From a virus: 34,278 bases of DNA. This document shows, piece after piece, positions 18,181 through 34,278 of the stretch (its first letter is position 1; every line of letters begins with the position of its first letter). The stretch is taken from the IMG/VR virus record IMGVR_UViG_3300027754_000259, positions 1-34,278 of that record. One strand, given 5' to 3'. The notes beneath the pieces were generated by a model, which did not search any database, was not told where the DNA came from, and saw nothing but the letters and a program-made list of their open reading frames with translations. Made by a program: the position numbers and the translations under genes.

Positions 18181-18477
18181 ATGAATAAGAAATTTAAAAC
18201 ACAAGAACGAAAGTTGAAGTTGATCAACAACCAACTACACTATAATAAGCTGATAGCTGAAACAATGACAATGCAGCCGCTATTCTTAGAAAACTTTGAG
18301 GAACTTAACGAGGTCCTCCCAGAGTTTTTCACAACGGACTTACTTAAGAAGTTAGAGATGTTTAGTAATAGTTTGTACTGGAGTAAGTCAAGTGATGATT
18401 TAGCAGATGTAGCAAACGAGCAAATTTCAAACGTAGAAGAACTTCGTAAATTTTTTGATAAAAGTTTTGAGATATGA
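18181..18477 (+). CDS. Hypothetical protein, 98 aa
   Basis: The 98-aa product is basic at the N-terminus (NKKFKTQERKLKLINNQ) and acidic and helical afterwards (FEELNEVLPEFFTTDLL, VANEQISNVEELRKFF). It starts one base after the zincin-like gene and overlaps the methyltransferase start by four bases (ATGA), so it is translated together with both. A partner for the methyltransferase cannot be ruled out. No family is recognised. Confidence 0.57.
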   Translation: MNKKFKTQERKLKLINNQLHYNKLIAETMTMQPLFLENFEELNEVLPEFFTTDLLKKLEMFSNSLYWSKSSDDLADVANEQISNVEELRKFFDKSFEI

Positions 18478-19595
18478 ATGTATTAAGTTTATTTAATGGA
18501 ATGAATACAGGACGTCAAGCACTAGAAAACGTAGGAATTAAAGTTGATACATACTATTCAAGTGAGATTAAACCGTATGCTATTGAATTAACTCAATATC
18601 ATTTTCCTGATACTATTCAAGTAGGAGATGTAACTAAATGGAAAGAATGGGATATTGATTGGTGTAAAATTGATTTGATATTAAGCGGATCACCTTGTCA
18701 GGATTTAAGTGCAGCTGGAAAAAGGGCTGGTATAAATGGTAAAAAGTCAAGTTTGTTCTTTGTTTTTATTGAAATATTAGAGCATATTAAATTACTGAAT
18801 CCAAATGTATTATTCCTTCAAGAAAATGTAGGAAGTGCAAGTAAATTGGACGTTGGTATTATGAGTAGAGCGCTTGGAGTTTATCCGGCCCGAATTAATT
18901 CAAGTTTAGTAACCGCACAATTACGTGATCGTTATTACTGGTCCAATATAAAAACAAAGGAAACAATGTTTGATATTGTGACTGATATACCTCAACCAAA
19001 AGATTTAGGTATAATGTTTAAAGATATTATTACAGATGGATATGTTGAAAGGGTTAAATCACTTGCACTATTGGAATCCGAAAGTAGAATTTGTACAAGT
19101 CAAGAAAGTATTAAAAAACGAGCAAAAAAAGAATTTATAAATATGATTTATGTCGATACAGATAAACACACCTGTTTAAATACAGGAAGTGGTAAGGATG
19201 GTTCACAAAGATATTTAAAACACAGAAACGAAACAACTGGAATGTTGACTTTAATATACGAAGAAAACAACGAATTAAGATGCAAAACAAATACTTTAAA
19301 AGGTTTTGATATAGTAACGGAAAATGATTGCATTGATTTGAGTTTTCCCACCTCAGTAACAAGAAGAGGAAGATTTACAAAAGGGAAAAGTCCTTGTTTA
19401 ATGGAATCAAATAACAACCTTTATTCCTACAAAGATGGAATAGTTAGAACAGTTAACCAAATAGAAATGGAAAGGTTACAAGGTTTTCCTGATGGATATA
19501 CAAGTATATTATCTAAAGCAAAAGCTGGATCATTGCTTGGAGATGGTTGGACGTTGCCAATAATTGAACATATTTTTAGTTTTATAGTTGCTTAA
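18474..19595 (+). CDS. C5-cytosine DNA methyltransferase (orphan)
   Basis: The 373-aa enzyme shows the ordered C5 motifs: motif I VLSLFNGMNTG (residues 3-13, AdoMet binding), motif IV SGSPCQDLS with nucleophile Cys75, motif VI ENV (117-119), and motif VIII QLRDRYYWSN (149-158). The C-terminal motifs are RTVNQIEMERLQGFPDGYT and GSLLGDGWTLPIIEHI. The region between about 165 and 315 is the target-recognition part. It would transfer a methyl group to cytosine C5 at an unknown site. No restriction enzyme lies next to it, so protection from host restriction or a regulatory mark is likely. It is the last gene of the early operon. Confidence 0.94.
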   Translation: MNVLSLFNGMNTGRQALENVGIKVDTYYSSEIKPYAIELTQYHFPDTIQVGDVTKWKEWDIDWCKIDLILSGSPCQDLSAAGKRAGINGKKSSLFFVFIEILEHIKLLNPNVLFLQENVGSASKLDVGIMSRALGVYPARINSSLVTAQLRDRYYWSNIKTKETMFDIVTDIPQPKDLGIMFKDIITDGYVERVKSLALLESESRICTSQESIKKRAKKEFINMIYVDTDKHTCLNTGSGKDGSQRYLKHRNETTGMLTLIYEENNELRCKTNTLKGFDIVTENDCIDLSFPTSVTRRGRFTKGKSPCLMESNNNLYSYKDGIVRTVNQIEMERLQGFPDGYTSILSKAKAGSLLGDGWTLPIIEHIFSFIVA

Positions 19596-19748: not shown

Positions 19749-19946
19749 ATGAAATATTTACCAATCTTACTATTATTATCATGTAGTACTAGCGTTCACC
19801 AATACAATCTAGATATTCAACGTAAGAAAATGCTGAAATATGACAAGCAAAGCATACGTAAACAGCAGAATATAAGAGATAAGAGGGGTAAAACACTATT
19901 TATAAAACGTAAAAAAGTAAAACAAAACGTAAAAAAGTATATTTGA
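19749..19946 (+). CDS. Small lipoprotein, 65 aa, reading into the iteron array
   Basis: From the ATG at 19749 the protein begins MKYLPILLLLSCSTS, a lipoprotein signal with lipobox LLSC (Cys12 would be the lipidated residue). The mature part is short and extremely basic, ending in KRKKVKQNVKKYI. The in-frame upstream ATG at 19677 would bury the signal, so 19749 is preferred. The last 13 codons are made of the 11-bp iterons (19908-19918, 19928-19938), so the C-terminus may be imposed by the DNA repeats. A surface or exclusion role is possible but unproven. Confidence 0.5.
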   Translation: MKYLPILLLLSCSTSVHQYNLDIQRKKMLKYDKQSIRKQQNIRDKRGKTLFIKRKKVKQNVKKYI

Positions 19947-20308
19947 TTTTTTTACGGAAAACATAGTTGATTTTCAAATAGTTATAAGCCACCGTAAAAA
20001 AGTGGTTTTTTTTTGCTTTATTTTTTTACGGTCTTAAACGTACTGTTAATAGGCTTCTACGAGCAAAACGTAAAAAAGTTTATAAAAAAAGGGAAGTTTT
20101 TTTAAAAATAATATTTTTTATTTTTTTAGGGTAAAAAACAATTTACTTTTTTACGTTTTCAATCTAAACCTTTACTGCCATTGACTTTAAGACCGTAAAA
20201 AAATAAAAACACTTTTTTACGGTTAAAATACAAAAGCCTATTCCTATTGACTTTGAGACCGTAAAAAAATCATTTTAACTTTTTTACGTTTTAGTTAACT
20301 TTTTTACG
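19908..20308. repeat. Iteron array, 12 copies of CGTAAAAAA(G/A)T: likely replication origin
   Basis: Twelve 11-bp copies are present. + strand: 19908, 19928, 19993, 20069, 20194, 20260. - strand: 19946, 20020, 20145, 20211, 20278, 20298 (first base given). Three sit in a longer repeat sharing TAAGACCGTAAAAAAAT or near variants (20186-20204, 20252-20270, and the reverse strand at 20020-20038). A strongly AT-rich stretch (20098-20128) may be the unwinding element. The array lies directly upstream of the SF3 helicase gene. Phages of this kind often have initiator sites beside the helicase gene. A transcription-control array is the alternative. Confidence 0.72.
19989..20014 (+). terminator. Weak terminator-like hairpin within the iteron array
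   Basis: CCAC (19989-19992) pairs with GTGG (20002-20005) around one iteron, followed by nine Ts (20006-20014). The stem is only 4-5 bp, so strength is uncertain. It could end the lipoprotein transcript. The same bases form an iteron, so the hairpin may be incidental. Confidence 0.3.
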
Positions 20309-20329
20309 TTTTAATTAAAATATTATATA

Positions 20330-20337
20330 TATATTTG
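20330..20337 (+). promoter_or_regulatory. Promoter -7 element (TATATTTG) for the replication operon
   Basis: TATATTTG lies just after the last iteron (20298-20308), within an AT-rich run. A clear TTG at -33 spacing is missing; the last iteron occupies that place. Transcription would start near 20341 and read the structured leader. Binding of the iteron protein could therefore control this promoter. Confidence 0.5.
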
Positions 20338-20340
20338 TAT

Positions 20341-20423
20341 CAGGTAAGCCTGGAAACTTCCATAAGATATTATTTAGAACCCATTTGTTTAAAGTCATTC
20401 CAGGCACTTTATTCAAATGGGTT
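20341..20423 (+). promoter_or_regulatory. Structured leader RNA with potential H-type pseudoknot
   Basis: Two perfect inverted repeats are interleaved: GCCTGGAA (20348-20355) with TTCCAGGC (20398-20405), and AACCCATTTG (20378-20387) with CAAATGGGTT (20414-20423). The left arm of the second lies in the loop of the first, which gives a pseudoknot of 8 and 10 bp. The second stem covers the ATG at 20417 and is followed by a T-rich stretch (TTTGTTATTT), so it may also work as a terminator. CAGG at 20341-20344 can pair with CCTG at 20349-20352 instead, an alternative fold. It lies between the promoter at 20330 and the replication genes. Confidence 0.6.
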
Positions 20424-20611
20424 TGTTATTTAAAAAACTTTATATGAATTACAGATTAAAAAAAGATGATTCAATTATTGAAGTGTTAAACTTTGATAAA
20501 ACAACTAGAATTATTATTCAAAATAATGATGGTCAAACCTACATTGATTTGAATAAAAAACAATTAGATGAGATAATATATCAGTTAACAATTTCATTAA
20601 ACGAACTATGA
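20417..20611 (+). CDS. Small protein upstream of the SF3 helicase, 64 aa (or 55 aa)
   Basis: The product is a small alpha/beta protein: two strands (SIIEVLNF, TRIIIQNNDGQTYIDL) and a C-terminal helix (KKQLDEIIYQLTISL). The ATG at 20417 lies inside the second stem of the leader structure. The in-frame ATG at 20444 would give a 55-aa protein starting MNYRLKKDD and is perhaps the better start. It overlaps the helicase start by four bases (ATGA at 20608-20611). Function is unknown; small DNA-binding or regulatory proteins are common in this position. Confidence 0.6.
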   Translation: MGLLFKKLYMNYRLKKDDSIIEVLNFDKTTRIIIQNNDGQTYIDLNKKQLDEIIYQLTISLNEL

Positions 20612-22023
20612 ACGATAACAATTTAAAACCTTTTTATGACATTAGTCAAGATGGTAAGCCTTCACTAAGTATTTATAGATTTAGATTATTTTTAGAATAT
20701 AGTGGGTTTTTTAAAAATCGACCTAATGAAAATAGTGCTTTTAATTTAATTAAAAAGAATGGTATGTTTTTAGAAATTAAAGATGAAACTGATATAAAAG
20801 ATTTTGTTTTAACATATATTTTAAATGATTCAAAATCTGAAGCAGTTTATAATTTGATGGCAGGAAAAACAACTACTTTTAAACGTGATTTTTTATCTCA
20901 AATAGCTACAAAAGAAATAAAAATATTAAGAGATACTAAATATATTTGCTATTTGTTTTATGAGAATGGAGTAGTTGAGGTAAAAAAAAATAGTCAAAAT
21001 TTAAAAAAATATAGTGATTATGGTTTATCAATATGGAAAGACCAGGTTATCAAAAGAAACTATATTGAAAGCGACCACCACGATAGCGAGTTTAGAACTT
21101 TTATATGGAAGATTTCAGGTGAGAATGTAGATAGATATAATACGTTTCAAAGTGTAATAGGTTACTTAGTACATTCGTATAAATCTAAAGGAGATAATAA
21201 AGCTATTATTTTAAATGATGAAATGATTTCAGACGAACCAAACGGTAGGAGTGGTAAAGGTTTATTTTGGAATGCTTTATCTAATATGAAAAAAGTACAG
21301 TCTATTGACGGTAAAAAGTTTTCGTTTCAAGATCAATTCCCTTATCAATCTATAAAAACAGATTGTCAAGTTTTAGTGTTTGATGATGTAAAAAGAAATT
21401 TTGCTTTTGAGAATTTGTTTAGTGTAATTACTGAAGGAATAGAAATAACTTACAAGGGACAAAATACTATTAAGCTTCCTGTTGAAGACAGTCCTAAAAT
21501 ATTAATTACTACAAATTATGTTTTAAAAGGTACAGGAGGCTCACATGATGCTAGGAAATTTGAAGTTGAATTAAGTACGTTTTTTAATGCTACACACACA
21601 CCGATTAACTTCTTTGGCCATATGCTTTTTGATGATTGGGACTTAGAAGAGTTTGCAAGGTTTGACTGTTACATGATTGAATGTGTAAAAAAATATCTTA
21701 ATAATGGGTTAATGAACTATGAAAGCATATCTTTACCGTTCAAAAAATTTGAAATTGATATAAGTAAAGAATTACTAGAATGTGTTGAGACTTTAAAAAG
21801 TGGACAATGGTACGAGTCTTTGTGGTTCTATGAATTTTACGAGAATCAATTAATCAATAAATTTGATAGGAATAAGAAAACTAAAAACATGGTAACAAAA
21901 TACATAATAAAATATTGTGAATTTTATGATTTTAAATATGAATCAGTTTCACCTGGCGGAGTTAAAAAATTTAAAATTGAAAGACCTACTATTAACCCAA
22001 AAACTTTAGACAAATGGAACTAA
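20608..22023 (+). CDS. SF3-type replicative helicase (phage primase/helicase-like ATPase)
   Basis: In this 471-aa protein residues about 195-330 form an SF3/AAA+ core: Walker A EPNGRSGKGL (Lys217), Walker B QVLVFDD (Asp259, Asp260), sensor-1-like KILITTN (297-303) and an arginine in SHDARKFEVELS (316) as a possible finger. Residues 1-190 have no primase motif I recognise; residues about 380-471 are helical and may bind DNA. Such proteins unwind DNA at the origin, here probably recognising the iteron array 300 bases upstream. The stop overlaps the next gene by 10 bases. It is probably the initiator-helicase of the phage. Confidence 0.85.
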   Translation: MNDNNLKPFYDISQDGKPSLSIYRFRLFLEYSGFFKNRPNENSAFNLIKKNGMFLEIKDETDIKDFVLTYILNDSKSEAVYNLMAGKTTTFKRDFLSQIATKEIKILRDTKYICYLFYENGVVEVKKNSQNLKKYSDYGLSIWKDQVIKRNYIESDHHDSEFRTFIWKISGENVDRYNTFQSVIGYLVHSYKSKGDNKAIILNDEMISDEPNGRSGKGLFWNALSNMKKVQSIDGKKFSFQDQFPYQSIKTDCQVLVFDDVKRNFAFENLFSVITEGIEITYKGQNTIKLPVEDSPKILITTNYVLKGTGGSHDARKFEVELSTFFNATHTPINFFGHMLFDDWDLEEFARFDCYMIECVKKYLNNGLMNYESISLPFKKFEIDISKELLECVETLKSGQWYESLWFYEFYENQLINKFDRNKKTKNMVTKYIIKYCEFYDFKYESVSPGGVKKFKIERPTINPKTLDKWN

Positions 22024-28174: not shown

Positions 28175-28248
28175 GTTCAAAATCATTTATAATGGTAATA
28201 ATAATTTCATCAATACTATGGTATATAATTATAAAATCCTTAATTTAA
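28171..28248 (+). CDS. Tiny hydrophobic peptide, 25 aa
   Basis: An ORF from ATG 28171 encodes 25 aa, MSSKSFIMVIIISSILWYII and five more residues, a single membrane helix. It starts at an ATGA overlap with the previous gene, and its 3' end overlaps the glycosyltransferase gene by 31 bases in another frame. It may be a real small membrane peptide or only a coupling ORF. Confidence 0.35.
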   Translation: MSSKSFIMVIIISSILWYIIIKSLI

Positions 28249-29126
28249 GTAGTAATGACTACGCTAACATGGCGCACAATAACGCAAACGCTTTAAGGTC
28301 GATAGGTGTTATCTGTGAGGACTTAACATTAAACAGTCATGTGTTTGGATATACTGAAGAAAGCAAGGTTGTAGATAGAAAGTATATTATAAACCACGTT
28401 AACAACTATGATGTGGTACAGATATTCCATAGTTGTCCAGTGATCCTTTCGCTTATTGAAATAGCTAAATTCAAAGGTCGATTAATTGTTTACCATTCAG
28501 GAAGTAGATATAGAGACGAACCGTTTTTTTATAACAACATATTCAATCCAATTGTTCACCGTTGCATTACAGACCAAACAGAGTTCATGGAGTTGGGAGC
28601 AAAAGATATTGCATACTTAGCACCACATACCGATTTAAAGACTGTAGACAAGCGCAAAGACGGTAAACTTATTGTCGGTCATTATCCTAGTAATGCAATT
28701 GTAAAAGGCACGAAAGATATTAGGGAAATGTTAGAACCGTTTAAAGATGACTTTGAAATAAGAATCGACGAAACGATACTACCACATGAAGAAAATCTAA
28801 AACGTATTGCAGAATGCCATATCTATATTGAACTATTTAAACCTGAGTTAAACGGTAAACCTTATGGATGTTTTGGAGTGACTGCATTTGAGGCTACTGC
28901 CTTGGGTTGTGTTGTGGTTACGAATGATTTGAATACTAGTGTTTACGAAAATGTTTTTACTAGACATGATTTTTTAATAGCAAATGATAAAGAAACTTTT
29001 AGACAAGTTTTACTAGTGACATCAATGTTAAAAACAGAAACGTTTAATGATAGGTTTCATAAAGACTTTCATAGCAAACATTCAATTGAATCTACAGGAA
29101 AACGAATACTAGATTTAATAAAATGA
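28218..29126 (+). CDS. Glycosyltransferase, GT-B fold, GT4-like
   Basis: The 302-aa protein has a GT-B outline: an N-terminal half with YDVVQIFHSCP and YHSGSRYRDE, a linker with GHYPSNAIVKGTKDI (about 153-167), and a nucleotide-sugar-binding half with KPYGCFGVTAFEATALGCVVVTN (the GT4 E-x7-E region, about 213-235). It would move a sugar from an activated donor to an unknown acceptor. It is coupled by ATGA to the tandem GT2 gene, so the two probably act in sequence. Targets could be virion protein or host surface glycans. Confidence 0.82.
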   Translation: MVYNYKILNLSSNDYANMAHNNANALRSIGVICEDLTLNSHVFGYTEESKVVDRKYIINHVNNYDVVQIFHSCPVILSLIEIAKFKGRLIVYHSGSRYRDEPFFYNNIFNPIVHRCITDQTEFMELGAKDIAYLAPHTDLKTVDKRKDGKLIVGHYPSNAIVKGTKDIREMLEPFKDDFEIRIDETILPHEENLKRIAECHIYIELFKPELNGKPYGCFGVTAFEATALGCVVVTNDLNTSVYENVFTRHDFLIANDKETFRQVLLVTSMLKTETFNDRFHKDFHSKHSIESTGKRILDLIK

Positions 29127-30349
29127 ATCCACTAGTAACAATAATAATCCCTTATTCAATTGATAGGGGTTATCTTAGTCAAGCAATTGAAAGCGTTAAA
29201 AAACAAACGTATTCCAATATTGAATTATTAATACAAAATGATAATGTTAACGTATCTACTAACATAAACAACGGTATTAAACGTGCGAAAGGTTTATATA
29301 TTAAGTATTTATGTGAAGATGACTATTTAACAACTAACTCAATTACAGATAGCGTTGAAGCTATGCAAGGGTTCGACTTTATTCACGGGGTTGCTAATAA
29401 TGTACACACAAATATCGTGCAAGTGCAAGTGCCAAGGTTTAAGCAGCCTACTTTTAATGATATGATATACAACAATGTTATTCACGGAGGTACACTAATG
29501 TTTAGAAAGGACATTTTAGACGCTGTAAACGGCTTTGATGAGTCATTAACTTGTGCTGAAGAGTACGATTTAAACCTTAGATTGTTAGATGCTGGTTATA
29601 AGTTAGGATATACAGATAAGATTCTATACAATTACCGTAGACATGACGCTCAAAAGAGCTTAGGTAAAGGAATAAACCAAGGTGAACGAGCGCAAAAGAT
29701 ACAAGCAATTAGAGATAAGTTTACTAGAACACCTATAATTGTAGGAATAGCAACCTTTAAAGGGCGTGAATTGTTATTACAAAGGACTATAGAATCTTTA
29801 AAGGGTCAAGTTGATAAGATAATAGTTTACAATAACGAACTAAATACAGACTTAACCGATAACGGTAAGTTTTACGGGTTAAATTATGTGACTAAACCGT
29901 CTTACTATTTCAGTTGTGATGATGATATTATTTACCCTAGCGACTATATACAGAAAACAATACAAGCAATAGACAAACATAATTGTATAGTAACTTACCA
30001 CGGTCGTAGATTGAAAGGTATAGGAGTGGAATACTATAGAGGACATGATTCTTATAGCGCATTTAAAACCGTTAATAATGGAATGTATTTAGATGTATGT
30101 GGGACGGGAGTAACGGCATTTAAAACAGATTATTTTAACCCGTCAAGCTTACTAGATTCTGAACACAAAAAAATGAGTGATGTTATATTCTCACTTAAGG
30201 CAATAAAGGATAAAAAGAAAATGTTTATGTTACCACATTCCCAAGGGTGGATAATAGAACAAAGAACAATAGTAAATATACATACTGAACAAATTAAAAA
30301 CTCACAAATACAAACTAAGTTATGCGACGAAATACTGAATTTGAAATAA
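29123..30349 (+). CDS. Tandem-domain GT2 glycosyltransferase, 408 aa
   Basis: Two GT-A/GT2 domains lie on one chain. Domain 1 (about 1-200) has VTIIIPYSIDRGYLSQAIES, an acidic CEDDYL site (Glu65-Asp67) and HGGTLMFRKDIL, then DESLTCAEEYDLNLRLLDAG. Domain 2 (about 203-408) has VGIATFKGRELLLQRTIESL, a CDDDIIYP site (Asp266-Asp268) and CGTGVTAFK. Both DxD-type sites look intact, so the protein may add two sugars in turn. Its end overlaps the tail-chaperone gene by 28 bases, so it is made with late proteins, which favours glycosylation of a virion component. The acceptor is unknown. Confidence 0.85.
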   Translation: MNPLVTIIIPYSIDRGYLSQAIESVKKQTYSNIELLIQNDNVNVSTNINNGIKRAKGLYIKYLCEDDYLTTNSITDSVEAMQGFDFIHGVANNVHTNIVQVQVPRFKQPTFNDMIYNNVIHGGTLMFRKDILDAVNGFDESLTCAEEYDLNLRLLDAGYKLGYTDKILYNYRRHDAQKSLGKGINQGERAQKIQAIRDKFTRTPIIVGIATFKGRELLLQRTIESLKGQVDKIIVYNNELNTDLTDNGKFYGLNYVTKPSYYFSCDDDIIYPSDYIQKTIQAIDKHNCIVTYHGRRLKGIGVEYYRGHDSYSAFKTVNNGMYLDVCGTGVTAFKTDYFNPSSLLDSEHKKMSDVIFSLKAIKDKKKMFMLPHSQGWIIEQRTIVNIHTEQIKNSQIQTKLCDEILNLK

Positions 30350-32793: not shown

Positions 32794-34278
32794 ATGGATA
32801 GATTAGTAGTTAATAATACGGAATTAGATTTAAACGATAGAGTACCATTCCCTTTAAACTTTTCCATAGCAGATAGTAAAGAACCTAATAAGCGTAAAAG
32901 GAATTACTCGAAAGAAGTTGTTATTCCCGGCACGGCTTCAAATATGGCTTTCTTTAGTTCAGCTTATCAATTAGCTTTATCAACTGTTGACAATACTACT
33001 TTAATCGGTTTTAACTTTGACCCAACGGTAAGAGTAAAAGCAAAGTATTATAAAGAGGGTTTACTTGTCTTTAACGGGTTATTAAGATTGAACCAAGTTA
33101 CTATATCAAATGGTGACTATTCGTTTAAATGTACCTTATTCTCAAACTTCATTGATTTATTCATGAAGCTAGGAGATAAAAAGATAAGCGAGTTAGGATG
33201 GTCAGAATATAACCATTTATTAAATAGAACCAACGTAATTAATTCATTTGCTACTTCGGTAAAACTAGAAGGTGTAGATACGGTTAATTTCACAGCAGGC
33301 TTGCCAGATGGTTTTGGTTATCATTACGGATTAGTTGAATACGGCTATACAGCTTATTCGACAAGGTCAACAACTGATATAATACCTTTGACTTATGCGC
33401 GTGAAATATTCACTAAATGTTTAGAGGTTGCTAACTTAACGCATGAGTCTGATTACTTAGATTCTGCAATATACAAAAAGAAACTTGTAGGTTTTGGGGG
33501 AGGTCAAAAAATATCTTTACCATCTACGGAGGTTGCAAATAGACGCGTTAAATTTACAAGCACTTTAAGTAATGTTAAAGAATATGTTTATATAGCTGTA
33601 GACCCTGACAATGCGAATAGATATAGATACTTAGCTAATAATTGGATTGATATGTTAGCAACGTGGGACGGTATAACATCAACTTTAGTACATGATAATT
33701 TTGATCAATACTATATAGACCACACAAATACAGCAGCAGGATATTACAATTACATAACTATAAAAAAACAAGGTTTATATAATCTAAATATATCACACCC
33801 TATAGAAGTAGCTTTTGATTTTGGAGCTATGAGTAACGCTGGAGGTATATTTAATGTTAAGTGGGAAGTTTTAAAAAATGGCGCGGTTATAGATTCTCAA
33901 TTAGTTGAAGAGGGTGATATTAGTACAACTTACGCAAATACATTTATCTATAATAGCAATATTCAATTAAATGTTGGCGATGTTATTACTATGCGGTTTC
34001 AAGTTTATTTAGATTATAAGCTAGACGTCACAATGTTTTCAGGAATAGAACCATTAGAGATAAGTATAACTTCTAGTTCTAACTTTACTACGGATTTAAC
34101 AAGTGTACAAGCTACATTGCAAGACGGTGACGTAGTAGATATTAGTAGATTCATGCCAGATATGAAAGCTAGTACATTCTTTGAAGCTGAAATGTTAATG
34201 GCTAACCTTTATTTTAGTGACCCTGATATTTACGGAGTAATTAAAATAGAACCTTTAAACGATTTTTACAAACCTACT
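32794..34278 (+). CDS. Tail hub/baseplate-like structural protein, N-terminal part (gene continues at position 3)
   Basis: The gene starts at ATG 32794, immediately after the previous stop, and stays open for 495 codons to the right edge. Its last 57 codons repeat the start of the window. The N-terminus (RVPFPLNFSIADSKEPNKRKRNYSKEVVIPGTASN spread over residues 17-51) has the PF-LNFSIAD and KR-NYSK-IPGT pattern seen in large tail-tip proteins of Bacteroidota phages, which resemble gp27-type hubs. Residues about 190-430 are mixed beta. With the 3-1058 part it encodes about 789 aa. Exact role is inferred from position between tail protein and tape measure. Confidence 0.78.
   Translation, partial: MDRLVVNNTELDLNDRVPFPLNFSIADSKEPNKRKRNYSKEVVIPGTASNMAFFSSAYQLALSTVDNTTLIGFNFDPTVRVKAKYYKEGLLVFNGLLRLNQVTISNGDYSFKCTLFSNFIDLFMKLGDKKISELGWSEYNHLLNRTNVINSFATSVKLEGVDTVNFTAGLPDGFGYHYGLVEYGYTAYSTRSTTDIIPLTYAREIFTKCLEVANLTHESDYLDSAIYKKKLVGFGGGQKISLPSTEVANRRVKFTSTLSNVKEYVYIAVDPDNANRYRYLANNWIDMLATWDGITSTLVHDNFDQYYIDHTNTAAGYYNYITIKKQGLYNLNISHPIEVAFDFGAMSNAGGIFNVKWEVLKNGAVIDSQLVEEGDISTTYANTFIYNSNIQLNVGDVITMRFQVYLDYKLDVTMFSGIEPLEISITSSSNFTTDLTSVQATLQDGDVVDISRFMPDMKASTFFEAEMLMANLYFSDPDIYGVIKIEPLNDFYKPT
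34106..34278. repeat. Right copy of the contig-end overlap
   Basis: This stretch aligns without gaps to 1-173 with 9 mismatches, mostly third-codon-position changes. The reading frame of the gene from 32794 passes into the frame of the gene at 3-1058. One of the two copies should be removed when the genome is closed, leaving about 34,105 bp. Confidence 0.93.

Follow-up and report, generated by a model that had tools for sequence, protein, structure and literature searches.

What does a dense cluster of short repeats upstream of a helicase gene do for the virus that carries it? The repeats in question occupy 401 base pairs (bp; positions 19908-20308) of IMG/VR virus record IMGVR_UViG_3300027754_000259, which was analyzed over its full length of 34,278 nucleotides (here called the window), and they lie upstream of the gene for an SF3-type helicase. 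We consider it highly probable that this array serves as a replication origin and that the adjacent SF3 helicase reads it by means of a C-terminal winged helix. The array, its symmetry, its recurrence beside members of the helicase family, and the covariation of the repeated word with the winged helix were all obtained directly. A preliminary description of the region had proposed the same combination of origin and initiator, and it is the best supported reading given the recurring arrays, the covariation, and the SaPI5 Rep-like fold of the helicase.

The repeated word, CGTAAAAAA(G/A)T, occurs in twelve exact copies, six on each strand, and an exact search found none elsewhere in the 34,278-base record, which bears out the twelve-copy bidirectional array reported earlier. 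The form CGTAAAAAAGT makes up iterons 1, 2, 4, and 6 on the plus strand (19908-19918, 19928-19938, 19993-20003, and 20069-20079) and iterons 7, 9, 11, and 12 on the minus strand (20145-20155, 20211-20221, 20278-20288, and 20298-20308). The form CGTAAAAAAAT makes up iterons 3 and 5 on the minus strand (19946-19956 and 20020-20030) and iterons 8 and 10 on the plus strand (20194-20204 and 20260-20270). Matches to the word with one mismatch number 17, compared to 5.1 ± 2.2 expected, and none of 100 shuffles reached 17. Dispersed repressor sites of the stoperator type were considered and set aside, as all twelve exact copies are confined to the one 401-bp cluster.

A feature overlooked in the preliminary description is the dyad symmetry of the array. 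The order of the copies (++-+-+|-+-+--) is its own mirror image, with spacings of 20, 18, 47, 27, 49|76|49, 17, 49, 18, and 20 bp. All six mirror pairs lie within 8 bp of symmetry, which none of 2000 simulations reached, and a symmetry test that permuted the observed gaps gave 0.001. The array also holds a large imperfect palindrome, whose left arm (19903-19957, plus strand) pairs with its right arm (20259-20313, minus strand); each arm is 55 bp long and the two are 87% complementary. The inner pair of iterons, with iteron 6 on the left and iteron 7 on the right, stands 76 bp apart and encloses an AT-rich central spacer (20080-20144), a candidate unwinding region that contains a one-mismatch site on the minus strand (20120-20130). 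The AT-rich element that had been placed inside the array is indeed present, with 89% AT in the inner gap compared to 76% in the whole array and 73% in the flanks.

The proposed initiator is an SF3-type helicase of 471 amino acids without a primase domain (PHROG 28855), encoded at 20608-22023 on the plus strand; its open reading frame (ORF) starts exactly 300 bp past the last copy, as first described. A sequence search of the helicase gave no match in the Protein Data Bank (PDB), and a Pfam search gave none for the short form of the protein, while one long-form relative matches DUF5906. An AlphaFold2 model was obtained with confidence (predicted local distance difference test score 87.5): the best solved structure found by Foldseek is the SaPI5 Rep primase-helicase (7OM0/7OLA; E = 1.3e-12, TM ∼0.5, 16% identity), and the modeled helicase core is of the SF3/D5-like type. 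The proposed iteron reader, a C-terminal winged helix, spans residues 377-460 (21736-21987, plus strand). Its winged-helix elements are predicted at residues ∼400-460, with helices at 404-414, 418-423, and 426-439 and strands at 443-447 and 454-458; the helix at 426-439 (21883-21924, plus strand) is the predicted recognition helix. A structure search with this domain matched the winged-helix fold, with all E values above 0.01. The window helicase has no N-terminal primase, whereas its long relatives have one of the BT4734-like_N/PriCT_1 type or of the Prim-Pol type, and the initiator is therefore modular at both ends.

Is the array a peculiarity of this genome, or does it belong to the helicase family? 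As relatives we took 80 helicase loci in IMG/VR. Arrays were scored by word counting at a threshold score of ≤1e-9, with 1500-bp tiles from the same contigs as controls, in place of a free expectation-maximization motif search that drifted into AT-rich noise. The preliminary description expected clusters of the same word near related helicases, and in this it was mistaken: none of the 80 relatives carries an exact-word cluster, and in many of them a different word of 10-12 bp is arrayed at the same place. A search for clusters of CGTAAAAAAGT would come out negative without bearing on the array, because the exact word is unconserved even at 80% helicase identity; its absence from relatives refutes conservation of the word, not the array. 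The threshold was reached by 29 of 49 short-helicase loci, compared to 3 of 199 control tiles, and by 8 of 76 long-form loci, compared to 2 of 186 tiles, and at least one of the control-tile matches is itself a displaced array (L017).

The arrayed words include CGTAAAAAGT (L012, L016), CGTAAAAA (L009, L010), YGTANNAAGT (L013-L019), AGTGRACTTT (L021, L024, L027), AGTAATCTTTTT (L025, L026), AGTAAWAAAGT (L029), and AGTAAAAGTT (L040-L049), with AGTACACAT, AGTACGAATC, and GGGCACATT at long-form helicase loci. Among distant relatives from Bacteroidota and Ignavibacteria assemblies, the array lies upstream of the gene in L194, L195, L197, L201, and L206, and downstream in L202, L206, and L212. A core layout of ∼(- 47 + 78 - 47 +) recurs with different words, down to ∼54% helicase identity, as do spacers of ∼70-100 bp between inward-facing iterons. 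The DNA between sites can be aligned among the window, L009, L010, L012, and L016, which puts the sites in the same places; every window copy has six A's compared to five in the other four, and a dozen sites have thus changed together. Apart from the helicase itself, no gene is conserved between array and helicase among the relatives compared.

These words also bear on another idea, in which AT-rich hairpins serve as terminators or cruciforms and the word is repeated merely as a consequence of palindromy. Several plus/minus pairs in the window can indeed be folded as stems. In L009, L172, and L175, however, the words are direct repeats 10-12 bp apart, and those along one arm in L024 point the same way, so no such hairpin forms there, and we regard this explanation as very improbable.

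The link between array and helicase becomes more specific when the iteron word is compared with the protein, by partial Mantel tests, in a close clade of 15 loci and a wider set of 37. In the clade, the iteron distance between loci tracks that of the winged helix once the core is controlled for (partial r = 0.76, p = 2e-4), but shows no such relation to the ATPase core once the winged helix is controlled for (r = -0.08, p = 0.79). A sliding window over the helicase places the signal, as a strong partial correlation survives only at residues 381-460. Linkage does not explain this result and would lead one to expect the opposite, because the winged helix is coded at the end of the gene farthest from the array. 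Two mosaic loci make the same point. L021 matches the window at 98-100% of residues 201-320, yet its winged helix and iteron type are those of L024; L023 has most of its first 100 residues in common with L009 but differs from it in both winged helix and iteron. Chimeric assembly of L021 and L023 was considered and is disfavored; for L021, the core it has in common with the window is ∼80% identical in nucleotides, which speaks against a chimera. The top covarying residue, K431, falls within the predicted recognition helix, an observation that is only suggestive. Overall, a single helicase scaffold occurs in this family with about 17 groups of winged helix and with many different iteron words, while the layout of the sites recurs.

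Clustered repeats can also be centromeres, and the array might instead serve in partition, as a centromere-like site, or in packaging. The window proteins that were scanned included none of ParA/ParB type, and the covariation partner of the repeats is the helicase, which leaves such a function with very little probability.

Several results weigh against an origin read by the winged helix, or limit how far that reading can be carried. GC skew, which had been suggested as a check, was positive almost throughout the genome and gave no origin signal; with nearly every gene on the same strand, it is uninformative here. The central spacer, AT-rich as it is, does not have the lowest thermodynamic stability, and the spacers of several relatives do not exceed their arrays in AT content. 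Word counting leaves about a quarter of the short-helicase loci and most long-form loci without an array. Across all 37 loci the partial correlation with the winged helix falls to 0.30 (p = 2e-4; core given winged helix, r = 0.05, p = 0.24), and partial Mantel tests can be anticonservative. Finally, L012 and L019 have near-identical winged helices and words that differ at inner bases, and L218, an out-of-sample check, carries CGTAAAAAAGT copies, yet its winged helix is L043-like and 23% identical to that of the window. Word and domain are therefore not matched one-to-one.

How would such an origin work? We infer the sequence of binding, ring assembly as a double hexamer, melting, firing, and use of host enzymes. 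The array would serve as the origin of a circularly mapping ∼34-kb Bacteroidota phage, with the SF3 helicase encoded 300 bp downstream as its self-loading initiator. The C-terminal winged helix of the helicase would bind the iterons, which would form two mirror-image half-origins on either side of an AT-rich center, the inner iterons being ∼76 bp apart. A helicase ring would form on each arm, the two loaded in opposite directions, and together they would melt the center, after which bidirectional forks would start with polymerase and primer coming from the host. The mirror-image layout is compatible with two hexamers loaded on the origin.

The right edge of the array raises a further question, that of its relation to transcription. 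A Bacteroidota-type -7 box (TATATTTG, 20330-20337, plus strand) belongs to the promoter of the operon, and iteron 12 overlaps its -33 position, in agreement with the preliminary description. That description went on to suggest that the initiator controls its own operon. The position of the last copy is compatible with this in the present phage, but in relatives a gap of mostly 30-69 bp separates the last iteron from the -7 box, and a separate TTTG/TTG -33 box is retained in several, which makes this phage the main case in which the last iteron might mediate autoregulation. A stronger version would hold that the sites are mainly operators, at which the helicase or another regulator represses the early or replication promoter at 20330, and that the array is no origin. 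The occupied -33 position fits this, as does the promoter and structured leader that follow the array in many relatives. We nevertheless find it unlikely, since twelve mirror-symmetric sites over 401 bp far exceed a promoter operator, the arrays of relatives mostly stop short of the promoter, and the covarying sequence is the helicase's own winged helix. In addition, no repressor gene was recognized among the window proteins scanned, and the arrays of the distant relatives L202 and L212 lie downstream of the gene.

What the promoter would transcribe first is a leader RNA (20343-20424, plus strand) predicted to form two hairpins with complementary, kissing loops. Hairpin P1 (20343-20348/20357-20361) carries loop sequence A (20348-20355) and is followed by the linker AAGATATTA (20364-20372) and by hairpin P2 (20377-20387/20414-20424), whose loop holds A' (20398-20405), complementary to A. 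Across elements, P2 is longer than P1, the linker AAGANATTA is conserved, a U-run often stands behind the structure, and a TAnnTTTG-like box precedes it in 12 of the 13 loci measured. The loop and stem sequences change completely between phages, with 19 different A sequences in 25 elements, while the complementarity stays. Because the MAFFT alignment of divergent leaders was not good enough, pairs were counted on eight close sequences, and the remaining leaders were judged by a rule-based search with shuffles. In the eight aligned leaders, 98.2% of cells pair, with a covariation score that no shuffle out of 500 attained; in the rule-based search, 18 of 131 loci reached the score compared to none of 393 shuffles. 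A scan of ∼4 Mb on both strands gave 26 distinct elements, 25 of them at these origins. Rfam gave no relevant match for the leader of the window or of seven relatives.

The leader is also present in L009, L012, L013-L019, L021, L023, L024, L067, L069/L097, L077, L081, and L121, and in L170, L171, L178, L218, L219, and L227. L017, L067, and L171 have it in a displaced position, a long way upstream of the helicase, and in L017 the array adjoins the displaced leader. Between leader and helicase, the window has an ORF of 64 amino acids (20417-20611). Its first ATG lies within the leader hairpin, and translation more likely starts at the following one, at 20444. This small ORF was rejected as an initiator candidate: it is unconserved, and several relatives have no ORF there.

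On the other side of the array lies a small lipoprotein-like ORF (MKYLPILLLLSCSTS..., 19749-19946), which is conserved 5′ of the array in many relatives and whose 3′ end overlaps the first iterons. The same ORF and the leader are found at L227 (2225-4474 and upstream), together with an array of GTGTAAACT-type words and an unrelated initiator, a DUF3987 protein ending in a winged-type helix-turn-helix. Origin and initiator were apparently exchanged there as a unit.

The leader looks like an undescribed regulatory RNA, may act in attenuation, antitermination, or priming, and may be the more novel part of the locus. Tentatively, and with somewhat less than even confidence, we propose a two-part origin: fast-diverging iterons that co-evolve with the winged helix, possibly under pressure from origin-directed nucleases or decoy origins, joined to an undescribed kissing-loop leader with the AAGANATTA linker, which is transcribed from the origin promoter and acts in the control or priming of replication.

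Other features surround this locus. The three copies described earlier as sharing a longer flank were recovered at 20194, 20260, and, as the reverse complement, 20020. The flank (C/T)ATTGACTTTRAGAC adjoins the first two and a related reverse complement adjoins the third, giving accessory boxes CATTGACTTTAAGAC beside iteron 8 (20179-20193, plus strand; present too in L009/L010), TATTGACTTTGAGAC beside iteron 10 (20245-20259, plus strand), and CAGTACGTTTAAGAC, read on the minus strand, beside iteron 5 (20031-20045). The accessory box sits in 49-bp spacers, is partly retained in relatives, and is perhaps the site of a second protein. HNH and GIY-YIG homing-type endonuclease genes recur by the origin, in the array-helicase interval of L013 and L041 and upstream of the array in L024 and L026; these may possibly be origin-directed nucleases. 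In the window, a C5 cytosine methyltransferase gene (18474-19595) lies upstream of the array, and two adjacent glycosyltransferase genes lie at 28218-30349. Over 172 bp the two ends of the record (1-172 and 34107-34278) match at 95% identity, which makes a circular map of ∼34.1 kb probable, with a mixed population as the probable source of the assembly. A nucleotide search against known phages found no match.

How does the locus compare with known systems? SV40 large T and papillomavirus E1 are SF3 helicases that recognize their own origin and load as double hexamers. These eukaryotic viral proteins use an N-terminal origin-binding domain (PMC7581432), whereas the reader proposed for the window phage is C-terminal. 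The closest comparison is with the self-loading initiator helicases SaPI Rep, whose C-terminal domain recognizes iterons and which apparently acts as two hexamers, and Cch2, whose isolated C-terminal domain binds the putative Cch2 origin (PMC7581432). The window shares with these a proposed helicase initiator and a probable origin adjoining the helicase gene, SaPI5 Rep is the top structural match, and C-terminal reading of iterons is predicted here as well. However, the SaPI origin is downstream of its gene; here the array precedes the gene in the window and in most relatives and follows it only in a few distant ones. The window also differs in its twelve sites in mirror layout and in a protein that lacks a primase domain, and it belongs not to a satellite but to a tailed phage. 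Phage P4 alpha is a helicase, too, and its winged helix binds repeats at the P4 origin, according to a passage of PMC4234260 that cites Yeo 2002 and Ziegelin & Lanka 1995. P4 alpha has an N-terminal TOPRIM-type primase, unlike the window protein, and the P4 origin-binding domain was outside the top 50 structural matches to the window winged helix.

The swapping of modules resembles that of PLE RepA and ori in Vibrio satellites, although PLE has a RepA_N-type initiator of a different fold without predicted helicase activity, and three iterons of ∼30 bp (PMC8263062). That matched pairs are needed for replication was demonstrated for PLE (PMC8263062), while here it is suggested by sequence comparison. 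An origin-directed nuclease is believed to be what selects for swapping of origins and DNA-binding domains in the Vibrio satellites (PMC8263062), and phage lambda can be blocked by additional copies of an origin (PMC4488673); a related conflict may therefore drive the divergence seen here. The natural series of matched iteron and winged-helix pairs makes the recognition code of a helicase initiator directly testable, along with the question of how a dozen sites change together without loss of function. SaPI Rep-like origins and PLE-like covariation of origin and domain are of an already known kind, and it is the matched-pair series and the undescribed leader RNA that are the main additions of this locus.
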